DNA from: Symbiodinium sp. CCMP2592
Lineage: Eukaryota; Sar; Dinophyceae; Suessiales; Symbiodiniaceae
Assembly (NCBI GenBank): GCA_905221615.1
Contig: CAJNDT010000124.1
Span: 62,001 to 126,000, forward strand
DNA: 64,000 nucleotides
Direction: 5' to 3'
The position numbers and the translations under genes were made by a program. Shown in pieces: positions 3,897-64,000 of this stretch. The notes under the pieces are model-generated. The model searched no databases, was not told the DNA's origin, and worked only from the letters and a program-made list of their open reading frames with translations. Positions within the stretch are counted from its first letter, which is position 1, and the number at the start of each line of letters is the position of its first letter.

Positions 3897-4029
3897 GCTT
3901 GGGGGTCGGGGGACTTAGTAAGTAGTTAGTAAGTAGACTTATAAGTACCCTAAAAGGGACCCTAATTGGGGTTATGGTACTTATAAGTCCCTAGAATAAC
4001 CAGCTACTACGTCCCCCGACCCTCCAAGT
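3897..4029 (-). mobile_element. Pal-A element
   Basis: First of ten Pal-A copies. The ends are CTTGGAGGGTCGGGGGACTT and its reverse complement. The middle is a TAAGTAGTTAGTAAGTAGAC arm, a central GGGACCCTAATTGGGG, and the inverted TTATAAGTCCCTAGAATAAC arm. The two halves are not identical, so orientation can be read. It has no coding capacity. Short size, terminal inverted repeats and TA flanks in the best copies fit a non-autonomous DNA transposon of Tc1/mariner type. Confidence 0.85.
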
Positions 4030-4116
4030 GAAGCCCTAAATCAGACCAGGACCTGACATGCTGCACAAAAAAAACATCACCAGGCGAATCGGGAACATCA
4101 GACGGAGTCTGCCTAG

Positions 4117-4383
4117 ACGGGCAAGCAAGAGTGCAACCACGACAATAACAACGATACTCACAAGAAGGACCTCTATGATACCAACAATTGCAGCAAGATT
4201 TGCCATCACCTCAATTACGTTGATCCAGATGTGCAAGCCGACGGTACAGAAGATGTGGAGAAATGGCGCAGATGCAGTAGGGGCAGAGAGTGCTTTAGCC
4301 ACAAAGGGATCACTGAGTCAAAGTCCCAAATATGCTTTGGGGTCTGGCACAGAGTGGCAAGGTTCACCTGCGGCACAAGCTAA
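4117..4383 (+). CDS. Cysteine-rich exon-like frame, no ATG
   Basis: An 88-codon frame opens just after TAG at 4114, has no methionine at all, and ends in TAA. It contains eight cysteines and segments such as CSKICHHLNYVDPDVQADG and WRRCSRGRECFSHKG. The lack of a start and a possible AG acceptor at its left edge would fit an internal-to-terminal exon. The base composition is unlike the telomere-like DNA around it. No family is recognised. Frames on both strands overlap it, so chance is possible. Confidence 0.22.
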   Translation, partial: TGKQECNHDNNNDTHKKDLYDTNNCSKICHHLNYVDPDVQADGTEDVEKWRRCSRGRECFSHKGITESKSQICFGVWHRVARFTCGTS

Positions 4384-4730
4384 ACCTTTGGAAACGCTGC
4401 ATGAGCGAAACCCGACATGATATACTCTCTCCTCTGAACATCACAAAAATCTCTGCCGCCTGGAGAATCCCACACTTTGGAGCTTTTCAGTAGAACCGAA
4501 AACACTGCCCCCCGGAACCCTAACTCTAAAACTGTAGAACGCTGAAGCCATAGACATTGAACCGCAGAATCTGAACTTTCAACGAACGCATGTTGAAACT
4601 GTGAACTCTTAGAGCAACCTCATAGAATCCATTATGGCTTCTGGAACCTTATACAAAGAGAAAGCCTTGTAGACCCCTGTAATTAAATCGAGATCCGTGT
4701 AGACACCTTTAAAGAATGCTTTTTGTCTTT

Positions 4731-4838
4731 ACCCCAAGGGTCCAAGTACCTACTAATCATATACTCTCCAAATTCCTAACCTACGTAACTACTATCCTGA
4801 AACCGAGTACCTAATTATTGGGTCCTTTGGACCCTTGA
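4731..4838. mobile_element. Pal-L element
   Basis: Ends CCCCAAGGGTCCAAGTACC and an inverted GGGTCCTTTGGACCC. The middle carries TATACTCTCCAAATTCCTAA and CATAACTACTATCCT-like sequence shared with copies at 16.0 and 63.4 kb. Confidence 0.8.
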
Positions 4839-4910
4839 AGTTAAAACTCACATGGTTGTAGAGTCTGAAGATGTCTGAAGTAGGCTACACCCTGATTCCT
4901 AGAGCCCGAC

Positions 4911-5012
4911 TCCTACTTGTCGGATATCATGGGGAACAAAAGGTTAACCTTTTTGGTTATATAGGGACTCTATGGGGACTATACTACCCAAACAAGGTTA
5001 AAGCCTAATCGA
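4911..5012 (+). repeat. Pal-U repeat
   Basis: Shares CCTACTTGTCGGGTATCATG-type sequence and a GGACTATACTACCC block with a second copy at 38.0 kb. The inverted-repeat ends are weak, so whether it is a transposon is unclear. Confidence 0.6.
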
Positions 5013-5035
5013 CTACTAGAGACTGTAGGACCCTC

Positions 5036-5061
5036 ACACCCCCACCCCCACCCCCACCCCC
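5036..5061 (+). repeat. (ACCCCC)n microsatellite
   Basis: A short run of ACCCCC units. Confidence 0.85.
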
Positions 5062-5144
5062 CGTTCGGTCCCTGTGAGCATTTACAGTTGAGTCAGAAGC
5101 CTGGTTGGACAAACACTCAACTCTGAAATCTAAATTCATGTGGA

Positions 5145-5244
5145 GGTTTGTCAAAATTATGGTCCCTTTTTGTGAACCCTAAATAAAAGGAGCCGGATTA
5201 TAATAAGGACCCGAAAAGGGACCCTAATTTTGACAACCGCCCAT
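5145..5244. mobile_element. Pal-B element
   Basis: First of seven Pal-B copies. The ends are GGTTGTCAAAATTATGGTCC and its reverse complement, usually extended outward by GGTG or TGGGTGG. The centre normally reads AATACGGCACC. This copy has diverged in the middle. Confidence 0.8.
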
Positions 5245-5533
5245 GTATATCCTGATCCCGAAGCCTCCGCCCCCCCACAGAAGCCCTGCTATAGTTACAA
5301 AACCCCGTTTTGAACTCCTTCAAGAACTCCGTAAACAGTTAAAGCAAGCTTCTAGTTACAAGAACCTTCTAGCCCTTCGAAGAACCGGCGGTATAGAGCT
5401 CGAAATACTGTTTCAGGAACTCGAACAACAAGAAAGTCCGCAAAGCAGAACCTTCAAACGTAATATATATATATATATATATATGTATATAATCACATCC
5501 GGCCCACCGCGAACAACGGAAAACTCCTTTTGA
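5243..5533 (+). CDS. Open frame with helical segment, interrupted by TA repeat
   Basis: A 96-codon frame from ATG. Residues 25-70 read as an amphipathic, Leu/Glu/Gln-rich helix (FELLQELRKQLKQASSYKNL). The frame then enters a TA microsatellite that yields meaningless Ile-Tyr repeats, so only about 5290-5460 could be exonic. The start overlaps the Pal-B end. No family is recognised. Confidence 0.22.
   Translation: MYILIPKPPPPHRSPAIVTKPRFELLQELRKQLKQASSYKNLLALRRTGGIELEILFQELEQQESPQSRTFKRNIYIYIYMYIITSGPPRTTENSF
5463..5486. repeat. (TA)n microsatellite
   Basis: A 24-bp alternating TA run. Confidence 0.9.
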
Positions 5534-5767
5534 TGACGAACCCCATCCAAGCCCTTCCAGGACCCATGCAAACAGAAAAAATGCTGGCAACAATGCAGAC
5601 CCTCCAGGAACGCCTAAACCCTGAACCCCAAGTCATGCAAAATCCTAAACTATCCCAAATCCTTCACCATAAACTACTAAGGCGAAACAACCAAAAAACA
5701 CAAAGCCTTGTAGAACCATTGTAGGAACCCTTATGGGGACCCCTATAGAAGAATTAAAGGAAGAGCT

Positions 5768-6056
5768 TGCGACAAGCATCCTAAACCCTACGCTCCGAAA
5801 CCCTATCCCCCAATTAACCCCTCTAAACCCCTAAACCCTAAACCCAGCAAAACAGAAGGGAAACTTCCGAGACCCTCCATCTACCCTCTATTAGACCCTA
5901 GGACCGTTTTCCCCCTATTTGAGGGTACAAGGGGGGTCCTGGTTCGTCTTAAAAACTTAAAACCCTAGACCCTAAACCCTAAACCCTAAAACCCTAAACC
6001 CTAAACCCCTAAACCCCAAACCCCTAAACCCTAAACCCTACACCCTAAACGGACAC
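5768..6056. repeat. Degenerate telomere-like tracts (CCCTAAA orientation)
   Basis: Two blocks (about 5790-5850 and 5955-6056) of CCCTAAA variants separated by unrelated sequence. Confidence 0.85.
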
Positions 6057-6140
6057 CTGGTATAGCGCTACCCTGGGCCCCTGGGCACCTCCAAGGCTTC
6101 CTTCTGCACCGAGAGGTTCCGGCTAAACTGGAGCTTGCCC

Positions 6141-6330
6141 ACCTTGGGGTTTGGGGTTTGGGGTTTGGGGTTTAGGATTTAGGGTTTAGGGTTTAGGGTT
6201 TAGGGTTTAGGGTTTAGGGTTTAGGATTTAGGGTTTAGGATTTAGGGGTGGGTGGAGGGGGAGGGGAGAGTCGGGGAGGGGGAGGGGGAGGAGGAGGTGG
6301 GGGGGAGAGTCGGGGAGAGAAGTTTTGAAC
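6141..6330. repeat. Telomere-like tract (TTTAGGG orientation) followed by purine-rich GGGGAGG run
   Basis: About 105 bp of GGGTTTG and GGGTTTA units with seven near-perfect TTTAGGG copies, then a run of GGGGAGG, GGAGG and GGGGGAG. It faces the opposite tract at 5955-6056 across about 85 bp of non-repeat sequence. Confidence 0.9.
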
Positions 6331-6494
6331 CCAGTGTAGAGGTGAAACTTCGGGGGTTTCCGAGAAGAAGGGCCTAGGGTGCCTTTAAAAGGATCCTTTA
6401 AGGGCTCTCCTATAAGGGATCTATAGGGTTTAGGGACTAGGGTTCCTTTAAAGGGATCCTTTAAGGTTCTCCTATGAGGGATCTACAGGGTTTG

Positions 6495-6627
6495 CTTGGA
6501 GGGTCGGGGGACTTAGTAACTGGTATTTTTAGAGACTGATAAGTACCATAACCCCAATTAAGGTCCCTTTTAGGATACTTATAAGCCTACTTACTAACTA
6601 CTTACTAAGTCCCCCGACCCTCCAAGT
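6495..6627 (+). mobile_element. Pal-A element
   Basis: Full copy in the opposite orientation to the one at 3.9 kb, with intact CTTGGAGGGTCGGGGG ends. It sits inside a field of CCTTTAAAGGGATCC-type repeats. Confidence 0.85.
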
Positions 6628-6727
6628 GGGGTTTCCGAAAACAAGGGCCTAGGGTTCCTTTAAAGGGATCCTTTTATGGGCTCCTATAAGGGATCTAGAG
6701 GGTCTAGGGTTTAGGGGACTGTAGCAT

Positions 6728-6823
6728 GGGAGTTTCCGAAAACAAGGGGTACCTGATCTTGGGGTCCTTAAAGTACGGATCCTACTATTTAGGGTACTAG
6801 TTTAGGGTCCCCTGCTTTCGGAG
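6728..6823. mobile_element. Pal-H element, right end decayed
   Basis: First of the Pal-H copies. The left end is GGGAGTTTCCGAAAACAAGG and the inner part is GGTCCTTA..GGATCCTACTATTTAGGG. The right end has decayed to CTTTCGGAGCTT. Confidence 0.75.
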
Positions 6824-6834
6824 CTTGCCTTTGT

Positions 6835-7000
6835 AGGGCTTAGGGGTGTAAGGTTTAGAGGGTTTGGGGGCTTAGAGGGTTTTATAGGGCTCATAAGGTT
6901 TAGGGCCCCTTTGGGGGAGTGTTTAGGGTTCAGGGGTGCGGGGTCTCGTTTTGGTCAGCGGGGTTTGCGGTTCAGGGGTTTAGGGTCATGGAGTCTCTTG
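6835..7000. repeat. Degenerate telomere-like tract (TTTAGGG orientation)
   Basis: Loose GGGTTTAG, GGGCTTAG and GGTTCAGGGG units. Confidence 0.7.
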
Positions 7001-7395
7001 CTGTATGGTGCTGAACAGTTGTCGGTTTCAAGATGGAAATATTAGTTGTATTGGGTTGTGGTTTAGGGTTCTGGGTCTTCAATCAACTTTTGGCGTTCGG
7101 GCTTACATGTTGTTGAATGGTTGAGGGTTGTGAGCTTCTTCTTGAGCGGGAGTTTTCTGAGGGGGTGGATTCTGCGGCTTGCGGTTTAGACTCTTTATTT
7201 GGGCCTCAGTGTTGAAGCGATATTAGTGGTCGAGAGTCTTTCTCGGTTGGTTTTTAGGTTTAGGGGTTCAGGGTTTAGAGTCTTTTTGGGGACTAGGACT
7301 GTGGAAATATGTACTCTGAAGAATGCCAGCACTATGGCTATCGCTGATCCACCTTTCAACGCTCAAACGGAGGACCAGCAATGGACGCAGGCGTT

Positions 7396-7503
7396 CCCAG
7401 AGAATCCAATACCCCTTATAATTAAGGCATATACCTTAAGCAATAGGGGGCTTAATGTTATGGCCTTAGGTATGTTCCTGAACAAAGGGATATTGGAGTC
7501 TCC
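7396..7503. mobile_element. Pal-P element
   Basis: First of the Pal-P copies. The ends are CCCAGAGACTCCAATATCCC-like and its inverse, with TTAATTAAGG and ATACCTTAA in the stem. Both ends are mutated here. Confidence 0.75.
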
Positions 7504-7572
7504 TAAACCCTATAGATCCCTTAAAGGAACCCTATAGATCTCTCATACCTAGATCCCTTTAAGGAACCCGGG

Positions 7573-7607
7573 GTATTCCTAAATTAAGGGGTATTGGGAT
7601 CTCTGGG
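7573..7607. mobile_element. Pal-P half copy
   Basis: Only the right arm (TTAAGGGGTATTGGGATCTC then TGGG) is present, 70 bp from the full copy. Confidence 0.65.
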
Positions 7608-7673
7608 TTGTTGTTCACAACAGGGCTTGTGTTGTCAGGATCTCGAGGCGTCTGATACTTTCGCAACAAGTCC

Positions 7674-7773
7674 GGTGGTTGTCGAAATTATGGTCCCTTT
7701 TTGGGTCCCGATTAGAATACGGCACTGATTTTCGAGTACCCAAAAAGGGACCCTAATTTTGACAACTACCCAA
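7674..7773. mobile_element. Pal-B element
   Basis: Complete copy with the AATACGGCAC centre. Confidence 0.85.
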
Positions 7774-7779
7774 GAGTTA

Positions 7780-8205
7780 CAGAGCTTATGAGCTCAAGGT
7801 TTGGAGTGTGCGTGTGTTGCAAGCCGTAGATGTTAGGGGTACGCTAGTGCCCTCCAGGATTTAGTGATCCTTGCATCCACATCCCGCTGTCAACAAATCA
7901 TACGCACGGAAGTCGCTGAAGACTAATAAAAGTCTACGGGGCGAACATGACCAAACACACGATATGTCGCGCCGTGCTGCAGCTGCTGCAACCGCCTTGA
8001 CCAGCCGCACCTGGCTTCTGCGGGGTGTTGTGGGTTCAAGCTGATTAACTCAGCAGAATCGGTTTTTGGTTGTTGCTCTGCGTTTAGGATGTTTGAGGGG
8101 CTGATAGGTGTATGTGCAGGCTTCAGTTGCGGACTCACCACCCAAACTGACCCGAAGCTTCAAACCCCCCCCGAACTTCAACACCTAAACTCACGTCTAC
8201 CATCC
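7780..8205. other. Unassigned stretch
   Basis: Contains a GCTGCAGCTGCTGCAACC run and several short open frames on both strands, none recognisable. Confidence 0.3.
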
Positions 8206-8212
8206 AAAGGCC

Positions 8213-8303
8213 TTACCCTAAGGCTCTAAGAACTCATATTTTGAGGCTTTTGGGCCTAAAGACCATATTATGTTAGGTTTTGGGCCATTTTGAGCCTTAG
8301 GGT
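8213..8303. mobile_element. Pal-X element
   Basis: First of three Pal-X copies. The ends are CCCTAAGGCTCTAAGAACTC and GAGCCTTAGGG. The middle is GCTTTTGGGCCTAAAGACCA. Two related copies at 57.4 and 60.5 kb lie in opposite orientation within a duplicated segment. Confidence 0.8.
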
Positions 8304-8595
8304 TAGGGTTCAGGGCAAAGCGGGGGGGGGGGAGTGGACAGGGGGTCTTCGGACTGAGGGACCCTGAAAGCATAGGTCTTTTGGCTTGCATCGAACCCCC
8401 CCGGATCCTACCTGACGTGGGACAGCCCTAATGAACCCCGTACCCTCTTTGCCATAAAATAGACAGCCAATCCTGACTGGCACTACCACAGTGTTCATTA
8501 CCATCAAAATACCTAGAGATACCCTACAGAACCCCCCACAGGGAACCGGCACAATTATGAGTGCCGAAAGTGCGCAGAATCACTGTTGCCCTTCA

Positions 8596-8760
8596 GACTC
8601 CATGTACACATATAGTAGGAACCTAGGCCATAAAGGGGTCCCTATATAGTACCCTAAACCCTAAACCCAAACTTTAAGGCCTTAAAGGTAGGCCTTAAAG
8701 GGGTCCCTAGCTAGGAACCTTAAGGCCTAAGTACCTACTACATGGGTACATGGAGCCTTT
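8596..8760. mobile_element. Pal-J element with telomere-like insert
   Basis: The ends CTCCATGTACACATATAGTA and TACTACATGGGTACATGGAG mark the Pal-J family. The middle contains CCCTAAACCCTAAACCC, which is absent from the copies at 17.6, 49.9 and 52.3 kb, so this copy gained telomere-like DNA internally. Confidence 0.75.
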
Positions 8761-9074
8761 GTGTTGCAAATCTCGAACTCTCCTTTAAGCTCCGTTTTCG
8801 GGCTGTCTGGTTCTTAGTAGGGAATAGCGTTCCTTTTTGAGGGTTTAGGGTGTAAGGGTTACTATAAGGGTTCTATAAAGGGTCTTAGGGTATCTATAGT
8901 CCCTATCCGGTTCTTAGTAGGGAGTGGGGTTCTGGAGACGATCATTGGGGATTATTTAGGGACCACTCTAGGAATCCATTCCCCCATTGGGTAGTAACAA
9001 CCAGACAGTAGGGCTTGGGTTTAGGGTTGAGGGGAGCTGGGCTGTTGGAGTGTAGGTTTTGAGGGTCTATATTG

Positions 9075-9177
9075 GGGGTTGTCTTTTAATTAGGGTCCCT
9101 TTTTGGGTCCTTATGATAATACGGCACCTAATAATTAGGGTACCCAAAAAGGGACCATAATTTTGACAACCACCCAT
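9075..9177. mobile_element. Pal-B element
   Basis: Complete copy with the AATACGGCACC centre and a clear TACCCAAAAAGGGACCATAA right arm. Confidence 0.85.
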
Positions 9178-9340
9178 ATGAAGTTGAGTGGGCTCTTGGA
9201 TATCTAGACACTACAGACTGTAGTATCTTTGTTCGAAGGACCTCTGTTCGGGCCAGGGGATCTCGTGATTGTAGCCTAGGCCCCCCCAAACACAGACCGC
9301 GGCGCCGCGGAGACAACACCATGCAAGAAAAGGAAGTCAG

Positions 9341-9454
9341 ATCCCCAAAGGGTCCTATGTACTGTTATGGGGAAGACTTCCCCAAATCATGATAGTAATT
9401 CCTAATATAGAAACCCTACATTCTACTATATCGGTACTTTGGACCCTTTGGGAT
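9341..9454. mobile_element. Pal-N element
   Basis: First of four Pal-N copies. The ends are CCCAAAGGGTCCTATGTACT and its inverse. The inner parts are GGGGAAGACTTCCCC and ATAGAAACCCTACATTCTAC. It lacks the Pal-O insertion found in the 57.1-kb copy, so it shows the empty site. Confidence 0.8.
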
Positions 9455-9660
9455 CTTGTTCGAAGCTGAATCTCTAGAACCGCAACTACATGACTGTCGA
9501 GGTCCCTGGGCCGCCGAACGGCACCCAACAAACCCTAAACCCTGAACCCAAACATAACATCATCGTCGTAAACGTCTCACGAAGAAAAAGACTCGTTCTG
9601 TCATCTTAAGAGGCCTGGGTACTTCAAGGATCTTTAAGGGGTTAGTTTTAATGGCTTAGG

Positions 9661-9936
9661 GTGCGGATCGATGTGATTTGGAGAAAGCGCGGCCAACAAC
9701 ACAGGTCGGGCGACCGCTTCCCGCGCCAAGATCAAGTGAGTGGCCGTCAATTCGAAGCCTCCAAGAAGCGCACAAAGAACAACAACACTGACAAGCGGAG
9801 AACCGCAAGAAACCCCCGAAAGACATATAAGTTCAGCTATGACGTAAGCACCGATAGGAGAAAATCGCCATCAAAGCTGAAGTCTTGGCAACTGGGCCCT
9901 GTAGGACTCTTCGACCCCCATGTAGGAAGACTTTAA
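9661..9936 (+). CDS. Basic open frame, unknown
   Basis: A 91-codon frame from ATG, very rich in Arg, Lys, Asn and Ser (for example SKKRTKNNNTDKRRTARN). The minus strand is also open across most of it. No domain is recognised. The length is within chance expectation. Confidence 0.15.
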   Translation: MRIDVIWRKRGQQHRSGDRFPRQDQVSGRQFEASKKRTKNNNTDKRRTARNPRKTYKFSYDVSTDRRKSPSKLKSWQLGPVGLFDPHVGRL

Positions 9937-10238
9937 GTTTTGCGACTTTGTTTATCGTTCTGAAAAATCGGTAAGAACACCGAAAACTCTGAATTTTGCT
10001 AGAACATCTGTTGGGAGGCATTCGAGAGCTGTGTGGGGGGTGTTTCTTGGCTTGGTAAGATTTTGGCGCTGGACGGGCTCCCCACCAACAGCTCATGCTA
10101 CATACAAGCGGGTGACTGGAGAGGGTGCTGAAAGCAATTTTCCCTAAAGCCTTACAACACCCTGTGGCGCCCTATAAGTCTCCAGATAAGTACGAGCTAT
10201 CTCACTGCCCTCGGGATCATAGGGCCCGGATTTCTTAA

Positions 10239-10413: not shown

Positions 10414-10575
10414 CTAAGTGACAGAAAACCATGAAAGGAACCCCTAAATAAAGTAAACGCTAAATGTGATAGTGCTGCTAATACTTATGACCCGTATGGT
10501 GATCAGTTGAACCCCTATAACCCTAAATCGTAGGGTTCGTTTTTCCTTCGCCTAAGGCTCGAAGGACCCACATTT

Positions 10576-10731: not shown

Positions 10732-10803
10732 CTAAACGCTGCACAAAACCAGCTGAAACAACCTGCTATGCTGCTGCTGCCATGCCTGATCCAAAAACCT
10801 CAC

Positions 10804-17593: not shown

Positions 17594-17606
17594 TTGGCAA
17601 GCCCTC

Positions 17607-17714
17607 CCAAAGGTTCCATGTAGCAATATGGTATATACTTATACCCTAAAGTACCCATATAGGAACCCCTTTGAGGTCCAAGTATATACTATATGGGTAC
17701 ATGGAGCCTGAGGG
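17607..17714. mobile_element. Pal-J element
   Basis: Compact copy without internal telomere-like DNA. Ends CCCAAAGGTTCCATG and its inverse. Confidence 0.82.
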
Positions 17715-18135: not shown

Positions 18136-18265
18136 ACTTACATCAGGCGGCTGCCGCACTTCTCCAGGAGGGCCACCAACCGAAGCTGCATCGCCGGATT
18201 GCGTAGCCCTGGCAGAGATACCAGCCATGACCCCGTCGGACGATATAAAGGGATTAAGGCCGAAC

Positions 18266-18379
18266 CCAGAGGCTCCATGTATAGTACCATTATGGAATTA
18301 GGTCCCAAAAGACCATCCATATCATGGCTTTGGGGACCTAATTCCATTCCATAATGGCACTATATGTGGAGCCTCTGGG
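18266..18379. mobile_element. Pal-K element
   Basis: Ends CCCAGAGGCTCCATGTATAG and its inverse, stem TACCATTATGGAATTAGGTC, loop CATATCATGG. Both arms are intact. Confidence 0.85.
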
Positions 18380-21804: not shown

Positions 21805-21912
21805 ACCTATAGTCTCGATTGTAGTTATGTTGTGTGTTTTTGTGTTACTTATAGGATCCTAACTATCATAATGGTTAAACCAAAAATGGAGCTACAATGG
21901 AGACTATAGGTA
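21805..21912. mobile_element. Pal-D element, possible TA duplication
   Basis: TA precedes CCTATAGTCTCGATTGTAG and TA follows AGACTATAGG. The middle is diverged. Confidence 0.82.
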
Positions 21913-23727: not shown

Positions 23728-23838
23728 CCCTAAGGGTCCATGTGCTCATATAGTACATACCTTGGCCTCAAAGTAGTCCCTGTACAAGAATTTTGGGGCC
23801 AAAGTATATACTCGTTGGGTACATAGACCCTCAGGGCA
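23728..23838. mobile_element. Pal-I element
   Basis: Complete, with the AAAGTAGTCCCTGTAC centre that defines the long form of the family. Confidence 0.83.
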
Positions 23839-28673: not shown

Positions 28674-28774
28674 TACCCAAAGGCCCCACAGTAGCTCCTT
28701 TTCGGTGTTCGTATATAGAATCCTATAAGCCTATAAAGTAATCCCAAAAAGGAACTACTATGGGGCCTCTGGGT
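28674..28774. mobile_element. Pal-C element, TA flanks
   Basis: Complete copy. TACCCAAAGGCCCC at the left and GGGGCCTCTGGGTA at the right. Confidence 0.85.
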
Positions 28775-32298: not shown

Positions 32299-32877
32299 CT
32301 ACTTGGAGGTTCCATGGGTAGTTATAAGTAGGGTTTATAGGGGGGTCCTTTTAAAGGGATCTGTAGGGATATAAGTAGGGTTTATAGGGGATCCTTTTAA
32401 AGGGATCTGTAGGGATTCTATAAGGGTGTAGGGTTTATAGGGGGGGTCCTTTTAAAGGGATCTGTAGGGATATAAGTAAGGTTTATGGGGGGTCCTTTTA
32501 AAGGGATCTGTAGGGATATAAGTAAGGTTTATGGGGGGTCCTTTTAAAGGGATCTGTAGGGATATAAGTAAGGTTTATAGGGGGGTCCTTTTAAAGGGAT
32601 CTGTAGGGATATAAGTAAGCTTTATAGGGGGGTCCTTTTAAAGGGATCTGTAGGGATATAAGTAAGGTTTATAGGGGGGTCCTTTTAAAGAGATCTGTAG
32701 GGATATAAGTAAGGTTTATGGGGGGTCCTTTTAAAGGGATCTGTAGGGATTCTATAAGGGTTTAGGGTTTAGGGCCTCGTGGGTAGTTATAAGTAGGGCT
32801 ATGTCCCCTAATATGGGTTATAAGTACAGTTACCCTACTTACAACTCTACTTATAACTACCCATGAACCTCCAAGTA
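32299..32877. mobile_element. Pal-T element expanded by an internal minisatellite
   Basis: Outer ends CTTGGAGGTTCCATGGGTAG and CTACCCATGAACCTCCAAG lie between TA dinucleotides. The compact copy at 47.8 kb is about 105 bp, whereas this one is about 580 bp because nine repeat units have accumulated in its left half. Confidence 0.85.
32331..32755 (+). repeat. 46-47-bp minisatellite, nine units
   Basis: The unit holds GGTTTATAGGGGGGTCC, TTTTAAAGGGATCTGTAGGG and ATATAAGTAA. Units differ by only a few bases, so the expansion is recent. The unit contains the Pal-T inner GTTATAAGTAGGG. Confidence 0.93.
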
Positions 32878-34452: not shown

Positions 34453-34559
34453 CCCGAAGACTCCAATATCCCTTAAGTAAAGAGTGTACCTTAGATTATA
34501 GTAGGCTCCATAATTTAATATGATTTACCTGAATTAAGGGATATTGGAATCTCCGGGTA
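34453..34559. mobile_element. Pal-P element, TA flanks
   Basis: TACCCGAAGACTCCAATATCCC at one end and GGAATCTCCGGGTA at the other. Confidence 0.83.
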
Positions 34560-35688: not shown

Positions 35689-35937
35689 GCCTATAGTCTC
35701 CATTGTAATTCCTTTTCATGGTTTACCAAGTTTATGGTCAGGGTCCTATATCAAAGGGGAAAGGGAGGGACCCTGAATGGGGAACCCTACCCTATAATGG
35801 GCTATATAATGGGCATATAATAGCTATATTAAGGGTATATACCTAGGGGTCCTTATTGAGGGTGCCTCCTTTTACCCTTGGACTATAGTAACAGCTTGCT
35901 TAAACAAGAGAGGGAACTGCAATGGAGACTATAGGTG
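35689..35937. mobile_element. Pal-D element split by Pal-E
   Basis: The Pal-D arms are at 35689-35750 and 35883-35937. Removing Pal-E and one CTATA restores a normal Pal-D middle (GGTCCTATAGTAAC). Confidence 0.88.
35751..35882. mobile_element. Pal-E element, 132 bp, CTATA duplication
   Basis: Ends TCAAAGGGGAAAGGGAGGGA and TCCTTTTACCCTTGGA. The five bases CTATA occur immediately before (35746-35750) and after (35883-35887). Confidence 0.9.
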
Positions 35938-36806: not shown

Positions 36807-36940
36807 ACTTGGAGGGTCGGGGGACCTAGTAACTGGCTATTGTAGGGACTTATAAGTACCATAACCCCCATTAGGGTCCCTCTTAGGGTACTTATAAGTC
36901 TACTTACTAACTACTTACTAAGTCCCCCGACCCCCCAAGT
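36807..36940 (+). mobile_element. Pal-A element abutting a truncated Pal-C
   Basis: Complete copy. Three bases after its right end a Pal-C lacking its left third begins. Confidence 0.85.
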
Positions 36941-37306: not shown

Positions 37307-37430
37307 CCCCAGACCCCCGGGAGGGTCCAAAAAGTAGATCCCTTAATGGGGGTTCCTATAAAGTACCCGTTGTGGTATAGGACCCCAAATTAGGGGATCT
37401 ACTTTCTAGATCCTCCCCGGGGATCTGGGT
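37307..37430. mobile_element. Single-copy palindromic element
   Basis: Arms CCCCAGACCCCCGGGAGG and its inverse, with AAAGTAGATCCCTTAAT and GGGGATCTACTTTC in the stem. Confidence 0.7.
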
Positions 37431-37522: not shown

Positions 37523-37632
37523 AGGATACCCAGTAACCTAAGAATAAACAGGCCTCTCTTTTTGGTATTGGGTAACTTTACAAGGAGCCTAGGACTACAA
37601 AAAGGGAATAAGGGTACTACTGGGCATCCTAG
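37523..37632. mobile_element. Pal-R element
   Basis: Ends CTAGGATACCCAGTAACCTA and GGGCATCCTAG, stem CCTCTCTTTTTGGTATTGGG. The homology with the 60.9-kb copy continues into the following TCGGAAACCCTAAACCC. Confidence 0.85.
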
Positions 37633-38543: not shown

Positions 38544-38653
38544 CCCAGAGACTCCAATATCCCTTAATTAAGGAATATACCTTAAATCTTACTAGGGATC
38601 CTACTATAATTTAAGGTATATTCCATAATTAAGGGATATTGGAGTCTCTGGGT
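38544..38653. mobile_element. Pal-P element
   Basis: The best-preserved copy: CCCAGAGACTCCAATATCCC and its exact inverse. Confidence 0.9.
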
Positions 38654-49896: not shown

Positions 49897-50006
49897 CCCT
49901 AAGGCTCCATGTACCCACATAGTAGATACTTAGGACTTAAAGTACCTATATAGGGACCCCTTCAAGGCTTAAGTATCTACTATGAAGGTGCATGGAGCCT
50001 TTGGGT
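49897..50006. mobile_element. Pal-J element, TA flanks
   Basis: TA-TCCCTAAGGCTCC and GAGCCTTTGGG-TA. Confidence 0.86.
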
Positions 50007-52295: not shown

Positions 52296-52405
52296 ACCCA
52301 AAGGCTCCATGTACCTTTGTAGTAGATACTTAAGCCTTAAAGGGGTGCCTAGATAGGTACTTTAGGGCCTAAGTATATACTATATGGGTACATGGAGCCT
52401 TAGGG
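52296..52405. mobile_element. Pal-J element
   Basis: Complete compact copy. Confidence 0.86.
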
Positions 52406-52856: not shown

Positions 52857-52949
52857 ACCCAAAGGCCCCATAGTGGTGCCTTTTTGGGATTACCTTATAG
52901 GATTCTATATACGAACACCACAAAGGAACTACTTTGGGGCCTTTGGGTA
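52857..52949. mobile_element. Pal-C element, TA flank at right
   Basis: TTACCCAAAGGCCCC and GGGGCCTTTGGGTA ends. Confidence 0.86.
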
Positions 52950-54695: not shown

Positions 54696-54789
54696 ACCCA
54701 AATGCCCCAAAGTAGTTCCGTTTTGGGGGCTCGTAAATAGAGTCCTATAAGGTAATCCCCAAAAGGAACTACTATGGGGCCTCTGGGTA
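54696..54789. mobile_element. Pal-C element, TA flanks
   Basis: TACCCAAATGCCCCAAAG and GGGGCCTCTGGGTA. Confidence 0.86.
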
Positions 54790-55084: not shown

Positions 55085-55216
55085 TCAAAGGGGAAAAGGA
55101 GGGACCCTTAATGGGGACCCCTACCCTATAATGGGCTATATAATGGGTATATAATAGCTATATTAAGGGTATATACCTAGGGGTCCTTATTAAGGGTCCC
55201 TCCTTTTACCCTTGGA
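55085..55216. mobile_element. Pal-E element, 132 bp
   Basis: Same length as the nested copy at 35.8 kb, with only scattered base differences. Flanks CCGAA and CCTAA would be a 5-bp duplication with one mismatch. Confidence 0.88.
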
Positions 55217-55770: not shown

Positions 55771-55871
55771 CTGTTGATGATATAAATCCTGCATGACCCA
55801 TAATAAGGAATATCCCATATTTCCCATAGTTTAGGGTCCTTGAGGTAATGCAGGATTTATATCATCAACAG
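55771..55871. mobile_element. Pal-F element nested in Pal-D, 101 bp, TA duplication
   Basis: TA at 55769-55770 and 55872-55873. The rejoined host site CCATGGTAGTGCC matches the standard CCATTGTAGTTCC. Confidence 0.95.
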
Positions 55872-55927: not shown

Positions 55928-56005
55928 CCCTATCCCTCCAAGGACCTCATAGTTAGGGCCCTAAAGCCCTTAAGGACCCCATAATAGGTCCCTGGAGGCA
56001 TAGGG
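55928..56005. mobile_element. Pal-G element nested in Pal-D, 78 bp, ATT duplication
   Basis: Ends CCCTATCCCTCCAAGGACC and its inverse. ATT at 55925-55927 and 56006-56008. Only copy in the window. Confidence 0.87.
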
Positions 56006-57052: not shown

Positions 57053-57270
57053 CCCAAAGGGTCCTATGTACCTATATAGTAGAATGTGGGGTTTCTATAT
57101 GAGGAATTACTATTATGATCCAGGGAAGTATCCCTTCGAAGGGGCCCCCACCCTGTAATAGTGGTATAATAGGAATATAATAGGGCCCTAATATAATCCT
57201 TATAGCCACTATTACAGGGTGGGGGCAGCTTCTAAAGTATCCCCGATAACAGTACATAGGACCCTGTGGG
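57053..57270. mobile_element. Pal-N element split by Pal-O
   Basis: Arms at 57053-57134 and 57236-57270. Ends CCCAAAGGGTCCTATGTACC and GTACATAGGACCCTGTGGG. Confidence 0.9.
57135..57235. mobile_element. Pal-O element, 101 bp, 8-bp duplication
   Basis: Ends TTCGAAGGGGCCCCCACCC and the inverse of TTAGAAGCTGCCCCCACCC. AGTATCCC at 57127-57134 and 57236-57243. An 8-bp target duplication is typical of hAT-class transposons. Confidence 0.93.
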
Positions 57271-57954: not shown

Positions 57955-58083
57955 ACTTGGAGGGTCGGGGGACTTAGTAACAGTAACTAGTTATTTTAAG
58001 GACTTATAAGTACCATAACCCCAATTAGGGTCCCTTTTAGGGTACTTTTAAGTCTACGTACTAAGTCCCCTGACCCCCCAAGT
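57955..58083 (+). mobile_element. Pal-A element, TA flanks
   Basis: Right arm shortened (TTTAAGTCTACGTACTAAG), otherwise complete. Confidence 0.86.
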
Positions 58084-58160
58084 ACCACCGAAACCTCATA
58101 CCGGCCCCGTACTCGTAACTTCACTCAGCAACCGTTGTATGAGACCCATGTGGCAATCTC

Positions 58161-58263
58161 TAGGATACCCAAGAATAAAAAGGCCTCTCTTTTTGGTATT
58201 GGGTAACTTTCTAAGGAACCTGGGACTACAAAAAGGGAATAAGGGTACTACTGGGCATCCTAG
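58161..58263. mobile_element. Pal-R element
   Basis: Left arm lacks the AGTAACC segment; right arm complete. Confidence 0.83.
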
Positions 58264-58388
58264 ATCTTGTGAAACCACATGAAACCCTGTCAAGCAGCTA
58301 AATCTTACGACCTAGACCACAAAGCACACACCAACAAAAACCAAACACACAACAAGTTGCAAAGCTATGGGACATTATGAAACCCCTA

Positions 58389-58478
58389 CCCTAGGGCTGC
58401 AAGTCTGCAAATAGTACCTACTTTGGGGTCTACAGTCCATAAATAGTGCCTACTTTGGGGCTGTTTGGAGCCTCAGGG
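58389..58478. mobile_element. Degraded palindrome with internal direct repeat
   Basis: CAAATAGTACCTACTTTGGGG and AAATAGTGCCTACTTTGGGG are repeated in tandem between CCCTAGGGCTGC and GGAGCCTCAGGG. Confidence 0.55.
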
Positions 58479-58599
58479 CTATGGGAAGCTACCAGAACCC
58501 ACAGTGACGAAAGCGGCCACCTCCTCGTCATCGAGCTCCGCCAACTGTGCAAACTTCAGGCAGCTCATCACCGCCTCCTGGCAGAATGCTTGAGGCTCC

Positions 58600-58652
58600 G
58601 GGTTTAGGGTTTAGGGCTTAGGGTTTCGGGCTCAGGATTTAGGGTTTAGGGC
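58600..58652. repeat. Telomere-like tract (TTTAGGG orientation)
   Basis: Short GGGTTTAGGGTTTAGGGC run. Confidence 0.85.
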
Positions 58653-59020
58653 CTCATCCATCCATCCGTCCATCCATCCATCCATCCATCCATACATCCA
58701 TCCATCCATCCATCCATCCATCCATCCATCCATCCATCCATGTATCCATGCATCCACTCATCTATCCATCGGTCTATCTGTCTGTTCTTCCCATCTATCA
58801 ATCTATCTACCTATCGATCTAGCCATCCCGGTACCTATACATCGGTCTATCTAGCTAACTCTCTCTCTAGCTGCTGATCCACCTATCTGTATCAACCGAT
58901 CCACCTATCGTTCAATCCATCCATCTGAGTTTCTGCCTCTTTGCCTATCTCCGTAACGAGCCATCTATCGAGCAATCCATCTGTCTATGCCTCTGTCTAT
59001 CTATCGATCTAGCTATCTCC
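58653..59020. repeat. (CATC)n block grading into degenerate CTAT/CATC
   Basis: About 90 bp of CATC, then 270 bp of decaying CATC, CTAT and CTGT units. Confidence 0.93.
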
Positions 59021-59219
59021 CTACTTGAGCTTGGGCAGCTTGGGCCCTAAACAACATTGGTGTGCCACGGGTATACGTACAAGGGTTCGGGGTGCAGGGT
59101 GCAGTTTGGGGTCGGAGTCTTGGGTACCGGGTGTGGGCGTGAGGCAAGTAATCAGGTCTCGAATCTCTCCCTTTTCTCAGACCCGTAAACCACGCCCCAT
59201 TTACAGCCCTAACTAATGA

Positions 59220-59835
59220 TTAATGAATGTCTACAAAAAAAACCTTAACTTCCTAAACTCTGAACCCTGACCTGCATACATATTCCTGCGATACCCAGTC
59301 ACTTCGAGCCTGGACGTCTGGGCTTGGAACCTGCGCCGAAGTCGAAACTCCAATGACTTGTCTTTGATGTCGGACAGGTCGGGTCTTATAAATATGTGGG
59401 TTTAGGGTTTAGGGTTAAATATGTCCAAGGACACAGACAGCACCTGAAGCCCCTCAGCCCTAAACCTTAATGACCTGAACCCTAAAAACAGCTATTGCAC
59501 GACGTGGGCAGCTTTCTATTGGTGTTCCTTGGTGGACCTCTGAGAACTTATGTGACTCTTGGTGCAGAATATAAGCGTCATGGCCTGGACACATATACTT
59601 TTTCTGTTTATCGACGGCAAATTACACCCTCATTTATAAAATTGCTATACTTGCAAGCACTTCTGGGATAGGTGGGGCCTGGAGTGCTCTCGGGTGGGGG
59701 GGATCCCCGCTGTAAAGCGTGAAGAGCCAGAGGGTGAGCCTTAAGCCGAAGCCATAGACTATACCTTGAGCATCTAAGGACTTGTATGAAGAAAGCATGA
59801 CACGGAGCCCTACAAAGACTTAAACAGCCCTAAAC
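59220..59835. other. Unassigned stretch
   Basis: A TTTAGGG pair at 59400 and scattered CCCTAAA units. No element or exon is recognised. Confidence 0.3.
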
Positions 59836-59840
59836 CCATA

Positions 59841-59936
59841 AAAGGAACTGTATATGGATTAATGGTAGGATCCCCTATAATTTACCTTAAAGGGGGGGGG
59901 CGATAATGATATTCCAACTTTCTGGCTTCTACTGTA
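59841..59936. mobile_element. Pal-Q element, left end lost
   Basis: TATATGGATTAATGGTAGGA to CCAACTTTCTGGCTTCTACTG. A G run of nine lies in the loop. Confidence 0.76.
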
Positions 59937-60010
59937 ACCCTAATGTCCAGCCAGCCACGCCCCCAAAGCCAATGAACTCCACTGCTCGAAGAGCCCCATG
60001 TGTACTAATC

Positions 60011-60167
60011 TAGGTACCTGATTAAGAAACCTTGGGCCTTTAGTAGGGTTCCTTTAAAAGGGGTCTATAAGGGTTACTATAAGGTATCTATAAGGGTACC
60101 ATAATATTGTAGGAACCTGATTAAGAAACCTTGGGCCTTTATTAGGTTTCTTAATCAAGTTCCTACA
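60011..60167. mobile_element. Pal-BB: hairpin plus a second partial arm
   Basis: At 60109-60167, GTAGGAACCTGATTAAGAAA and its inverse form a near-perfect hairpin. A further direct copy of the left arm lies at 60011-60046. Confidence 0.75.
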
Positions 60168-60216
60168 TTACCATTATGTAGGGTTTAGGGCCTAGGGTTT
60201 GGGCTTTAGGATGTAG

Positions 60217-60395
60217 GGTACTACCATGATGGAATTAGGTCCCAAAAGACCATCCCTACTGTTGATGGACTAAATCCTGCATTACCCCAAGGACCCTAAA
60301 CTATGGGAATTATGGTATATTCCTTCTTCTGGGTAATGCAGAATTCTGTCCATCAACTCTATGATGTTTTTGGGAACCTCTCACATTCCAAACTG
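60217..60395. mobile_element. Pal-K element split by Pal-F
   Basis: Left part to CCATCCC and, after Pal-F, TGATGTTTTTGGGAACCT corresponds to the Pal-K middle. The right end is decayed. Confidence 0.72.
60259..60359. mobile_element. Pal-F element nested in Pal-K, 101 bp, TA duplication
   Basis: TA at 60257-60258 and 60360-60361. Confidence 0.92.
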
Positions 60396-60480
60396 CTGGC
60401 ATCTGCAAGTTGGAGCAGACTCGAAAAATTCCACCGAAGAACGAAGCCGAAGCTCACTGCGAAGTACGAACTTCTTAATA

Positions 60481-60518
60481 CAAGGGCCCTAATAATTCGA
60501 ATAAGGTTTTGGGGCCTA
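60481..60518. mobile_element. Pal-W half copy
   Basis: AGGGCCCTAATAATTCGAAT to GGGGCC, cut at the start of the duplicated segment. Confidence 0.6.
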
Positions 60519-60718
60519 TTACCCTAAGGCTCAAAATGGCTCCAAAGCCTTATATGGTATGGTCTTTGGGCCCAAAAGCCATAGAATATGAGTCCTTAGA
60601 GCCTTAGGGTTTAGGGCTTAGGGAGTTCTTGCAAAGCCAACGGTATGCGTACGATGGTCTTTTGGGGGTCAATCATGAACCAGTGCCTGCGATTGCCTGC
60701 TGCTCCCACCCACTACTG
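60519..60718 (+). repeat. Duplicated segment, copy 2
   Basis: Matches 57361-57569, including its Pal-X copy (60519-60611). It ends at CACTACTG and joins a truncated Pal-A. Confidence 0.93.
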
Positions 60719-60726
60719 GTTATACT

Positions 60727-60828
60727 AGTAAGTAGACTTATAAGTACCCTAAAAGGGACCCTAATTGTGTTTATGGTACTTATAAATCCCTAAAATAGCC
60801 AGTTACTACGTCCCCCGACCCTCCAAGT
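60727..60828 (-). mobile_element. Pal-A element, left 30 bp missing
   Basis: Begins at AGTAAGTAGACTTATAAGTA. The CTTGGAGGGTCGG end is absent at this side. Confidence 0.82.
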
Positions 60829-60849
60829 AAGGTGTAGGTCCTAGATACT

Positions 60850-60961
60850 ATGATACCCAGTAACCTAAGAATAAAAAGGCCTCTCTTTTTGGTATTGGGT
60901 AACTTTATAAGGAACCTAGGACTACAAAAAGGGAATAAGGGTACTACTGGGCATCCTAGCC
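60850..60961. mobile_element. Pal-R element
   Basis: Complete. A second copy of its right end (GGGTACTACTGGGCATCCTA) occurs at 61083-61104. Confidence 0.86.
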
Positions 60962-60992
60962 CCTAATTCTCGGAAACCCTAAACCCTTTATG

Positions 60993-61082
60993 GAACCCTT
61001 ATAGATCCCTTTAAGGAACCCTTATAGATCCCTTTAAGGAACCCTTATAGATCCCTTTAAGGAACCCTTATAGATCCCTAAG
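60993..61082 (+). repeat. Tandem repeat, about 24 bp, four units
   Basis: CTTATAGATCCCTTTAAGGA then ACCC, repeated. It lies between the two Pal-R right ends. Confidence 0.88.
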
Positions 61083-61203
61083 GGTACTACTGGGCATCCT
61101 AGACTATGAGGCCGAAGCTCACTACGAGCTACGGACTCCTTACGCCCAGTAGGCTCGGGCTCTAGAACTCAGAGACCATGCTGTCTAAGGCTTTTGGGCT
61201 ACC

Positions 61204-61330
61204 CTACTATAAGGCCTCATAGTAGTTCCTTTTTGGGATTCATATATATATATATATATATATATAGAATCCTCTAATAGAGGATTCTATATATATGAAT
61301 CCCAAAAAGGAACTACTTTGAGGCCTTATT
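61204..61330. mobile_element. Pal-C perfect-palindrome derivative with TA loop
   Basis: AAGGCCTCATAGTAGTTCC...GGATTCATATA and a mirror around CCTCTAATAGAGG, with a TA run in the left arm. Each half is the same half of Pal-C. Confidence 0.85.
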
Positions 61331-61371
61331 ACTAAGGTAAACCCAAAAAGGAACTACTTTGGGGCCTATAT
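61331..61371. mobile_element. Pal-C right-end fragment
   Basis: GGTAAACCCAAAAAGGAACT to GGGGCC, following directly. Confidence 0.65.
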
Positions 61372-61849
61372 GGGCCATTTTGATCCCCGGGGTACGCTAA
61401 AGCCGACTTCGCCTGAAGCAGCTTGAAGAGAACACTCTCGCGACCCATCTCCTTTCGAAGGCTCTGTTCTGGATGCTTGGCTCAGGAAACTCACAAAGCA
61501 GATTTTGCCTTATACCTAAAGCCTCGGGAGACTTATAGGTTTTGGGGCTCAAGTTTTGTATGGTGGGCGCTTAAGGGTAAACTTGCTCAGCTTTTCCCTC
61601 AATGTTGTCTATGTGCGTGTGTGTATAGTGATGTCTGCTTTCTCATGCGCGGTTCGATGCTTCAACAGCATTCCTGTTGCTGACATCACCCGGCATTGGC
61701 TCCATTCTCTTGGATACAAACAGTTGCGTATAATTCAAAAGCTTTATGTACATCTGTATATATATGTACACACACGCACACATGTTGTACGTATAAGTGT
61801 ATGTCAGGCTAGGTGTCACAGTGCAGTGCAGATGGGATCCAATATATGG

Positions 61850-61948
61850 GTGGTCGTCAAAATTAGGGTCCCTCTTTGGGTCCTTATTATAATACGGCAC
61901 CAATTATTTGGGGTACCCAGAAGGGACCATAATTTTGACAACCACCCC
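61850..61948. mobile_element. Pal-B element
   Basis: Complete with the AATACGGCACC centre; lies inside the longest ATG frame of the window (61556-62029), which is therefore not a gene. Confidence 0.87.
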
Positions 61949-62123
61949 TATAGATCCCATACAGATCCCTTTATAAGTAAGGAACCCCTAAACCCTAAAC
62001 CCTATAGACCCCTTAAAGGAACCCTATAGATCCCATGTAATGTTTGTTTACCGCCCATATAGACTCAAAGCAAAGGCTTCTGCAGAGTTCTTCCCGCAGA
62101 CACCAAGCGAAGCTGCATCCCTT

Positions 62124-62236
62124 CCCAGAGAACCCAAGGGCCACTTAATCAAGGAGTATACCTTAAATTATACAGGCCTCAATATTATGATTCAAGGTAT
62201 ATTCCTTAATTGAGGGGGATTGGGATCTCTGGGTTT
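62124..62236. mobile_element. Pal-P element
   Basis: CCCAGAGAACCCAAGGG and GATTGGGATCTCTGGG ends; AATCAAGGAGTATACCTTAA stem. Confidence 0.8.
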
Positions 62237-62337
62237 AGCTGCTTGACAGGAGGTTGCATCAAGAAGACTACGGCCACGGGCATTCGTTTTTTTGTTAGAT
62301 AAGGGAACCCGGACCTACTATGGCATCGTCAGAGCGG

Positions 62338-62364
62338 ACACACACACACACACACACACACACA
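62338..62364. repeat. (AC)n microsatellite
   Basis: About 26 bp. Confidence 0.93.
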
Positions 62365-62369
62365 TGACA

Positions 62370-62820
62370 TCATGATAAATCACTGAACCATTTGCAGAAT
62401 GCACCAAACAGCGCATGTGCTCCGCATGGCGACAAGTTGCATGTTGACGGCTGTAAGACTACAAAAAGTTCCAAAACCCATGTTGGCGCAGACGAATATG
62501 TCGGGGATACGCCCACAGACGTTCACTAAGCCCCATTAGTTCGACTGCAGCTTGGCGGCATTGAACACCTGCGACACCTGGGTGCAAAGGTTCGACGTCT
62601 CCTGCACGAGACAGGCAGGCGGTTGTTGAAGGCAACGGGGGGGTGTTTCACGAGGCCTGTATGTGGTGTTTGTGTACGGTTGTCATCAGAGCTTGCTACA
62701 GCCACCATCAGCCACGTGTCACTGGCAGGGTTTCGACAAGCCTTCAAAAATCCTCAACCATACAGGGCTCTGAGCTTTGAAAAGGAAACTCTACACCACC
62801 GTACTCTGAACCGTGCCTGA
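62370..62820. other. Unassigned stretch with frames on both strands
   Basis: 73-codon minus and 65-codon plus frames overlap. No domain is recognised. Confidence 0.25.
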
Positions 62821-62887
62821 AGCCGGATCTAGGCTTAGGGTCTTTAGATGCTGCCGTAAGTGCCGGAAAGGACCATAGAGCTACACT

Positions 62888-62978
62888 ACACTATGTAATA
62901 GTGACTATAAGGGTATTGAGCCCGAATATATACCTATTCTACCACTATTACAAGGTGACCGGTGGGGGCCCCGGCTAA
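62888..62978. mobile_element. Pal-O element lacking its left terminal repeat, 8-bp duplication
   Basis: GCTACACT occurs at 62880-62887 and 62979-62986. The right end GGTGGGGGCCCCGGCTAA is complete, the left begins only at the inner ATGTAATAGTG. Confidence 0.85.
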
Positions 62979-63272
62979 GCTACACTCATGGTCTACAGGG
63001 ATCAAACAACCATGAGTGCAGCGCGAACGCAACGCTTGCCCGGGCTATAGAAGGTGGGTGGTCCAACCCTCCAAATCGTTTTAGGCAATTTAGGCATGAG
63101 CAAGCGGCACCAGACCGTGCGCTAAACGCTAAACCCTGAAAAAAAAAACCTAAACCCAAAACGCTGACACCCTTACACCCTCTAACACCTCGAAACCTAA
63201 ACCCTAATACCGTGAAGCCCTGAATAGTCGTCGCCCCAAGGCCGTGTAGCCGGTCAGAATGCTGTGAGACTT

Positions 63273-63380
63273 AGGTACTGCCCCCATACAGAAAGAGCCT
63301 ATAACAGGACTACGATTAAGGTCCCAATATATCTATATTTTGAATCCTATTCAACCATTACTGAGTGGGGGCCGTACCCC
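63273..63380. mobile_element. Pal-AA element
   Basis: GGTACTGCCCCCATACAGAA to ACTGAGTGGGGGCCGTACCC. Confidence 0.8.
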
Positions 63381-63437
63381 ATGTGAGACCTCAACCCACG
63401 CCTGCCGGGTTTAGGGTTCATAAGGCTTAGGGCGTTT

Positions 63438-63546
63438 ACCCCAAGGGTCCAAGTACCCCAAACTCGTATACTCTCCGAATTCCAAACCTACATAACTACT
63501 ATCCTAAGGCCGAGTACCTAATGATTGGGCCGCTTGGACCCTTAGG
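63438..63546. mobile_element. Pal-L element
   Basis: Best-preserved copy, TACCCCAAGGGTCCAAGTAC to TTGGACCCTTAGGG. Confidence 0.86.
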
Positions 63547-63609
63547 GCTAGGTTTCAGAGGATGGTATAGAGCTGAAGCCAACTCCCAACTAATCCCATT
63601 CCCCTGACA

Positions 63610-63825
63610 TCAGTTGCATCGATGCCTAAACCCTAGCCCTAGAACCGTATCCCTTGGACCGCCCAAACCCAAACCCCAAATCCCGACCCTTACCCCCCGT
63701 ACCCCCCGTACCCCCCGTACCCCCCAAACCCTAATCCCCCCAACCCTAAACCCTAGACTATCCTAGACCCCTAAACCACCCAAACCCCTAAACCCTAAAG
63801 CCCCAAACCCAAGCCCTAAATCTCG
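63610..63825. repeat. Telomere-like tract (CCCTAAA orientation) with CCCCGTA run
   Basis: Includes four CCCCCGTA units at about 63690-63725. Confidence 0.85.
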
Positions 63826-63892
63826 AACTGCCACGTGCCTTTGTCTCTGCTTCTCTCGATGCCAGCTCGGAGAAGAGTCTCCTGACAATTCC

Positions 63893-64000
63893 CTAAGGGT
63901 CCATGTGCCCAAAGAGGGTTTCCTTTAAGGGTTCCCTTAAAGGGTTCTATAGGGTATAGGGTATAAGGGTCCATGTACCCCAATAGTGTATACTTTGGGC
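63893..64000. mobile_element. Pal-I copy running off the window, preceded by a lone end
   Basis: CCTAAGGGTCCATGTGCCC at 63893 breaks into CCTTTAAGGG repeats. A fresh left arm starts at 63966 and is cut by the window end. Confidence 0.7.

Follow-up and report, generated by a model that had tools for sequence, protein, structure and literature searches.

Palindromic repeats in the window

The window analyzed here is a 64-kb stretch of the Symbiodinium sp. CCMP2592 genome (contig CAJNDT010000124.1, positions 62001-126000), which is densely populated by palindromic elements of about 100 bp that we sorted into lettered families. With up to one mismatch, the dinoflagellate spliced-leader motif occurs 318 times in each orientation in this genome and its reversed form not at all, which marks the genome as that of a dinoflagellate. 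With a library of 20 family models, made from the window and from sampled loci, we counted 113 nonoverlapping copies covering 11,113 bp, or 17.4% of the window, versus none in the reversed window sequence; the dense palindromes noticed in a preliminary description of this DNA are thus real. The window holds 70 inverted repeats bounded by TA, a few of them AT-rich or telomere-like; three shuffles under a first-order Markov model yielded 1, 4, and 2. Palindromes of low complexity or rich in CCCTAAA were filtered from the palindrome lists and from the nesting screens described below. The preliminary description put the number of families at about 25, a figure with which our 20 models are compatible; however, profile iteration merged C with D, H with Y, and F with G, I, O, P, and R, and the number of independent families is therefore lower than 20.

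The elements are short and uniform in length, with medians of 109 bp in family E (range, 105 to 119), 109 bp in F/G (81 to 118), 90 bp in the C/D model (80 to 104), and 132 bp in A (120 to 143). The longest stop-free frame in a scan of the whole window, 177 codons, is an AT-repeat artefact, and an Rfam scan of the window gave no match. In pattern searches of the whole assembly (1,098,105,373 bases in 5,383 contigs, the scope of all genome-wide searches), the exact 30-base end of E occurred 3,127 times and exact 30- to 31-base ends of C and F occurred 868 and 48 times, respectively; none of the reversed patterns was found. Short uniform length, terminal inverted repeats (TIRs), and the high copy number of the E, C, and F ends are all features that define miniature inverted-repeat transposable elements (MITEs). 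So is a target site duplication (TSD) of characteristic length in each family, which we also observe, albeit with ambiguity over the constant TA of C.

We also applied the library to 20 sampled 10-kb stretches on 16 contigs (200 kb), a nonrandom sample of hand-chosen round positions on contigs from earlier matches, some with family A. These stretches contained 129 copies (12,618 bp, 6.3%), and none in reverse. Copies are concentrated: no copy was present in the five stretches without CCCTAAA/TTTAGGG words or in locus L041, which has four such words, whereas the richest stretch consisted of 23% elements. Scaling from this nonrandom sample gives a rough genome-wide total of several hundred thousand copies. 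The CCCTAAA/TTTAGGG words themselves are degenerate and telomere-like, and they run across the window at 4.64 per kb and occur in other stretches of low GC content as well; the five sampled stretches without any such word have a GC content of 0.51 to 0.54.

Families differ in their target site duplications

We compared the flanks of 20 further copies of each of four families, taken as the best consensus matches (F), the first places in the pattern lists (E and C), or the matches of a 10-kb query (K). An exact 3-bp TSD borders 13 of 20 F copies, none of which has a 2-bp TSD, whereas 12 of 20 E copies have an exact 2-bp TSD and none a 3-bp TSD. TA/TA flanks 15 of 20 C copies, again with no 3-bp case, and 14 of 20 K copies have a 5-bp TSD (one K copy, L116, was extracted with its register off by one base and is scored as lacking a TSD). 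When mates were exchanged between copies as a control, matches fell to 14, 49, and 2 of 380 for F, E, and K, respectively. The duplicated sequences vary within a family: in E they are TA (four copies), TC (three), TT (two), and AA, GG, and AG (one each), and among the 13 exact TSDs of F, three are TTA or TAA and the others are AAT, TCG, AAG, TAC, CTC, GAA, ATA, and ACA.

TSDs were also tallied in our sequence set, comprising the window and other loci (L001, which overlaps the window, was excluded). Only copies with both ends recognizable were paired: 12 of 17 for E, 17 of 31 for F/G, 19 of 25 for the CD model, 8 of 16 for D, 25 of 32 for A, 15 of 18 for B, 16 of 20 for Y, 9 of 18 for H, 7 of 10 for K, and 4 of 8 for L. 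A 2-bp TSD was found in 19 of 25 A pairs (TA, 15; TG, 4), 14 of 15 B pairs (TA, 13; TC, 1), 6 of 8 D pairs (TA, 3; TG, 2; TT, 1), and 7 of 12 E pairs, the last with seven different dinucleotides. Among CD pairs, 12 of 19 had a TSD, every one TA, and 9 of 17 F/G pairs had a 3-bp TSD. TA is constant in C only and commonest in A, B, and D, while E and F/G/I target other sequences. The TG/TG and TC/TC flanking pairs are direct repeats, not inverted ones. Because non-TA direct repeats border A (TG, 4/25), B (TC, 1/15), and D (TG or TT, 3/8), the dinucleotide is the target and lies outside the palindrome. The usual TSD length, whether 2, 3, 4, 5, or 8 bp, is characteristic of the family; the 4-, 5-, and 8-bp TSDs belong to families outside the set with a shared end described in the next section. 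Family V (GGATGCCCAGTA) sits in CTAG (window positions 60851-60956 and 37524-37629; L004:314-419), and in five of its seven copies identical four bases flank both ends once the boundary is shifted inward by one base. These terminal four bases may be target or element end.

The 4-bp TSDs of Y (7 of 16 pairs) and H (5 of 9) recall the introners of Symbiodinium microadriaticum, which are reported to have TIRs and 4-bp TSDs (PMC9860276). We therefore considered whether the palindromes are introners or their relatives, seen here as intergenic copies. No element was placed in an intron, which is a weak objection while genes are unannotated and splicing is untested; on balance, an introner origin appears improbable to us.

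Several families share one terminal motif

A common end close to CCCnnAGgnnCC recurs in several families whose middles are unrelated. The ends were read from the copies of C (CCCATAGGCCCC), D (CCTATAGTCTCC), E (CCCAGAGACTCC), F (CCCTAAGGGTCC), G (CCCAAAGGCTCC), I (CCCAGAGGCTCC), and J (CCCAGACCCCCGGGAGGGTCC). Families A, B, H, Y, K, L, U, V, and W lack it. Across C, E, F, J, M, and N, taken as six families of unrelated middle, the terminal 12 bases agree on average at 7.7 of 12, and from position 13 inward agreement is about 0.23. As a control, we took random inner positions in 18 families and scored the 6 that agreed best; this value never exceeded 7.3 in 2,000 draws. These values are suggestive support for the earlier observation of nearly the same ends around unrelated middles, but they are not a clean test: the set was chosen beforehand by the preliminary description, representative arms were typed by eye, and N and M are represented by one and two copies. 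Moreover, the middles are unrelated only in part, since iterated profiles merge C/D and F/G/I/O/P/R. The preliminary description also counted TA as part of the common end. This is contradicted by the flanks of E, F/G, I, and J, and because E and F/G/I integrate at non-TA targets, the end is to be read without TA.

It had further been proposed that one transposase reads the shared terminal bases and moved every family bearing them. The occurrence of one end on unrelated middles is what this proposal predicts, and the single N copy, which combines the 12-base end of F with a different middle and is nested at a TA target, fits it as well. The flanks of the same families do not: C integrates at TA, E at varied 2-bp targets, and F/G/I at varied 3-bp targets, and the fetched copies of E and F do not overlap in TSD length. 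The stagger of the cut is normally fixed by the transposase, and since the TSD types differ, we infer that the shared-end set was served by no fewer than two transposases, and probably by three. To our knowledge, no single transposase makes staggers that depend on the family in this way, which we count against a lone enzyme; that proposal is, in our judgment, highly unlikely.

Alternatively, the shared ends could stem from convergence or composition bias and not from common descent of transposase binding sites. Differing TSD types under similar ends would then be unsurprising, and words resembling CCCTAAA and CCCTTTAAGG abound in the compartment, where CCC, AGG, and TCC words are common. Yet the terminal agreement exceeds all 2,000 inner-position draws and is confined to the end, albeit in a preselected set, and we consider convergence rather unlikely. 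A tentative possibility is that a transposase lineage kept its recognition of CCCnnAGgnnCC while its stagger and target preference changed, and that its ends were placed on unrelated hairpins, giving rise to new families. If so, inheritance of the end would be uncoupled from the middle and from the integration chemistry alike. The N copy, with the end of F and another middle, makes end capture a possible origin of new families.

The palindromes are mobile, and one family has spread recently

Several palindromes lie within other repeats, and joined-host alignments show that deleting the nested element and one copy of the TSD restores the host. The junction is gapless for the CCCTAT palindrome in D (ATT), B in an I-type repeat (TA), B in D (TA), L in another repeat (AGTATCCC), and N in A (TA, locus L038). 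It is also gapless for E in the end of J (CA, L025), where J has only four bases left of it. For K in D (CTATA), the restored host aligns with a gap of one base, located two bases beyond the junction. In L039, a W element is nested in another palindrome; one of its flanks is TA, and the other carries an altered base. An F copy is inserted in an AC microsatellite (L066), and a C copy is inserted in a telomere-like array (L095). In the nesting screen, 25 of 138 queries were telomere-like and were left out. The palindromes enter other repeats and leave a short duplication of the target sequence there; these nested insertions, together with empty sites in sister repeats, bear out the earlier view that the elements are mobile. 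A 10-kb query for a paralogous segment with empty sites, for which 39 candidates were scored, returned nothing but short matches to repeats. At L022:9520-9630, family H contains an insert of a different kind, about 100 bp long and nonpalindromic, which starts with AGCTGACAAGG, ends in AAAAA, and has a 10-bp duplication (TATAGTACGG); it resembles a short interspersed nuclear element or other retroposed RNA.

The 10-kb query also matched family K at 92 to 100% identity in 35 other places. Of the 20 fetched K copies, 19 agree with the window copy at 129 to 132 of 132 positions but have different flanks (the twentieth is the copy out of register), and most retain the same small difference between their arms. 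Because near-identical copies with different flanks occur at many places, spread over many contigs, family K is a recent burst. In agreement with this, long terminal repeat elements and DNA transposons in hybrid assemblies are described as mostly of low divergence (PMC8045281).

We also considered whether the hairpins are not mobile at all and instead represent structural or regulatory DNA or products of recombination. Such an origin would suit their strong palindromy and the finding that the two arms of one copy are about as similar as corresponding arms of different copies (E, F/G, and C/D). It is contradicted by TSDs of characteristic length, by the restored hosts, and by the K copies just described, leaving it extremely improbable. 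Homogenization of arms by hairpin-templated repair was likewise unsupported: the two arms of a copy resemble each other more than they resemble the nearest sister copy in 0 of 28 E, 2 of 37 F/G, and 1 of 36 C/D copies. Since arms are not generally closer within a copy than to the nearest sister, this process is not needed.

Annotated copies and their coordinates are collected in Table 1. The window also holds a tandem repeat at 32323-32750, with nine copies of a 47-bp unit and 92% matches.

Table 1. Palindromic elements annotated in the window, with flanking duplications
Element	Window position	Strand	TSD	Remark
Family E (CCCAGAGACTCC...GGAGTCTCTGGG)	38544..38652	.	TC/TC	
Family E	34453..34557	.	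TA/TA	
Family E	62124..62233	.	TT/TT	
Family F/G (CCCAAAGGCTCC)	52297..52405	.	AAA/AAA	
Family F/G	49897..50005	.	TAT/TAT	
Family F/G	17606..17714	.	CCT/CCT	
Family F (CCCTAAGGGTCC)	23728..23836	.	exact TSD absent	
Family I (CCCAGAGGCTCC)	18265..18379	.	GAA/GAA	
Family C (CCCAAAGGCCCC)	52858..52947	.	TA/TA	
Family C	28676..28773	.	TA/TA	
Family C	54697..54787	.	TA/TA	
Family D (CCTATAGTCTCC)	21806..21910	.	TA/TA	
Family J (CCCAGACCCCCGGGAGGGTCC)	37308..37429	.	TC/TC	by reading flanks
CCCTATCCCTCC palindrome (CCCTAT)	55928..56005	.	ATT	inside family D element
Family B (CTGTTGATGATA)	55771..55871	.	TA	inside D element also hosting CCCTAT palindrome
Family B	60259..60359	.	TA	inside family I-type repeat
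Family K	35751..35882	.	CTATA	inside family D element
Family K	55085..55216	.		many near-identical copies elsewhere
Family L	57135..57235	.	AGTATCCC (8 bp)	inside another repeat
Family A (CTTGGAGGGTCG)	6495..6626	.	TG/TG	direct repeat, not inverted
Family A	36808..36939	.		query of first genome search

Search for a transposase source

The preliminary description had suggested looking for a transposase gene with the same ends. None was found in a limited search covering 17 DDE loci, four Pfam profiles, and the sequence set. Across the assembly, 10 of 12 candidates matched PF13358, and PF03184 had at least 150 matches (150 scored of 218 candidates); PF01359 and PF02992 gave none, and the control genomes were likewise silent. 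Seven DDE_1 loci (L042-L048; GC, 0.52 to 0.56) had no flanking terminal repeat, and three of them contained unpaired TACCC-type sites; the ten DDE_3 loci were checked for inverted repeats only. One pattern searched in viral contigs had no match. Many DDE_1 (pogo-type) matches, on C5152, C1272, C1430, C1224, and other contigs, are regularly spaced at about 2.1, 5.4, and 6.3 kb, a spacing that resembles tandem arrays.

A Tc1-like DDE_3 element of about 1.06 kb is located at L018:1295-2360, where it occupies a TA inside an A-like palindrome. A Tc1-type element is thus present in this genome, but its ends (CTGCGGTAGGACGAAAG) differ from those of the palindrome families. In the sequence set, long candidates with equal TSDs comprised eight with C/D ends, three with A ends, and one with H ends. 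Two of the D candidates and the H candidate are nested insertions already described, and the A candidate in L018 is the A-like palindrome broken by the Tc1-like insert; the remaining candidates were not read.

A model for the palindromes and its significance

The palindromes are very probably MITE-like nonautonomous cut-and-paste DNA transposons with family-specific TSD lengths, moved by several transposases acting in trans. According to this model, elements of about 80 to 145 bp, composed mostly of inverted repeat and apparently without coding capacity, would be mobilized by transposases supplied in trans that recognize mainly the terminal bases. Given such recognition, different middles could travel under one end, and other transposases would have served A, B, Y/H, K, and L. 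That insertions build up in the compartment of low GC content and abundant CCCTAAA words may reflect the small number of genes they would disrupt there.

Several observations weigh against this model. In the mate-swapped control, 274 of 380 C combinations still matched, and this control therefore does not tell the constant TA from an element end. Of the 20 copies fetched per family, seven in F, eight in E, five in C, and six in K have no exact TSD, although some of these also lack a recognizable second end. Within the sequence set, exact cases of the longer duplications are few (K, 5 bp in 2 of 7 pairs; L, 8 bp in 2 of 4), and no long element bounded by the ends of E, F, or G with an equal TSD was found there. 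Inverted CCC-type ends were present at none of the 17 DDE loci inspected.

Hairpin transposons make up about one-sixth of this 64-kb window in the genome of a probable coral symbiont. Their similar ends and different TSD lengths amount to a natural test that sets end recognition against stagger and could reveal which part of the transposase or DNA determines each. Presence or absence of individual elements could, in addition, be used as a marker between symbiont strains. We recognized no report of intergenic MITE families in Symbiodiniaceae in a literature search on MITEs with Symbiodinium, Symbiodiniaceae, or dinoflagellates, which covered mostly titles and abstracts and few subscription journals, and the word MITE is absent from the main text of the 2021 assembly paper.

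Comparison with known systems

Stowaway MITEs of plants, including rice, are related to Tc1/mariner elements, target TA, and form many families in which one conserved end surrounds different middles; they are thought to be moved in trans. MITEs, shared ends with different middles, and trans mobilization are all established, and the assertion in the preliminary description that no described system has many such families is at odds with the rice Stowaway families, which share ends. The elements described here resemble Stowaway in being short, noncoding, and palindromic, with one conserved end and different middles. They differ in the end itself (CTCCCTCC in Stowaway) and in their targets, as TA alone is used in C (15/20) but not in E or F, with varied 2-bp TSDs in E and varied 3-bp TSDs in F/G/I; moreover, our search found no cognate transposase. 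Tourist MITEs and PIF-Harbinger elements have a 3-bp TSD of the form TWA. Families F, G, and I share the 3-bp length, but 10 of the 13 exact F TSDs are other sequences. EnSpm/CACTA elements and their miniature derivatives have TSDs of 2 to 3 bp with no fixed sequence within one superfamily, as seen here, but the ends of our families begin with CCC, CTTGG, or CGGTT and never with CACT, and PF02992 was unmatched in the assembly (as in the controls).

Closer to this organism, many families of introners with TIRs and TSDs are described in dinoflagellates (PMC9860276, PMC7789003; Roy et al. 2023, as cited in PMC11453091). The palindromes are likewise small, with TIRs, TSDs, and many families, but introners are defined as introns, whereas our elements are known from genomic sequence alone. 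Coral CMITEs are also a group of related MITE families, in which the middle is reported to be more conserved between families than the ends (PMC2872659), the reverse of the pattern seen here. Against this background, what looks unusual in the Symbiodinium palindromes is the combination of a shared end with different TSD lengths, together with their density in a low-GC, CCCTAAA-rich compartment.

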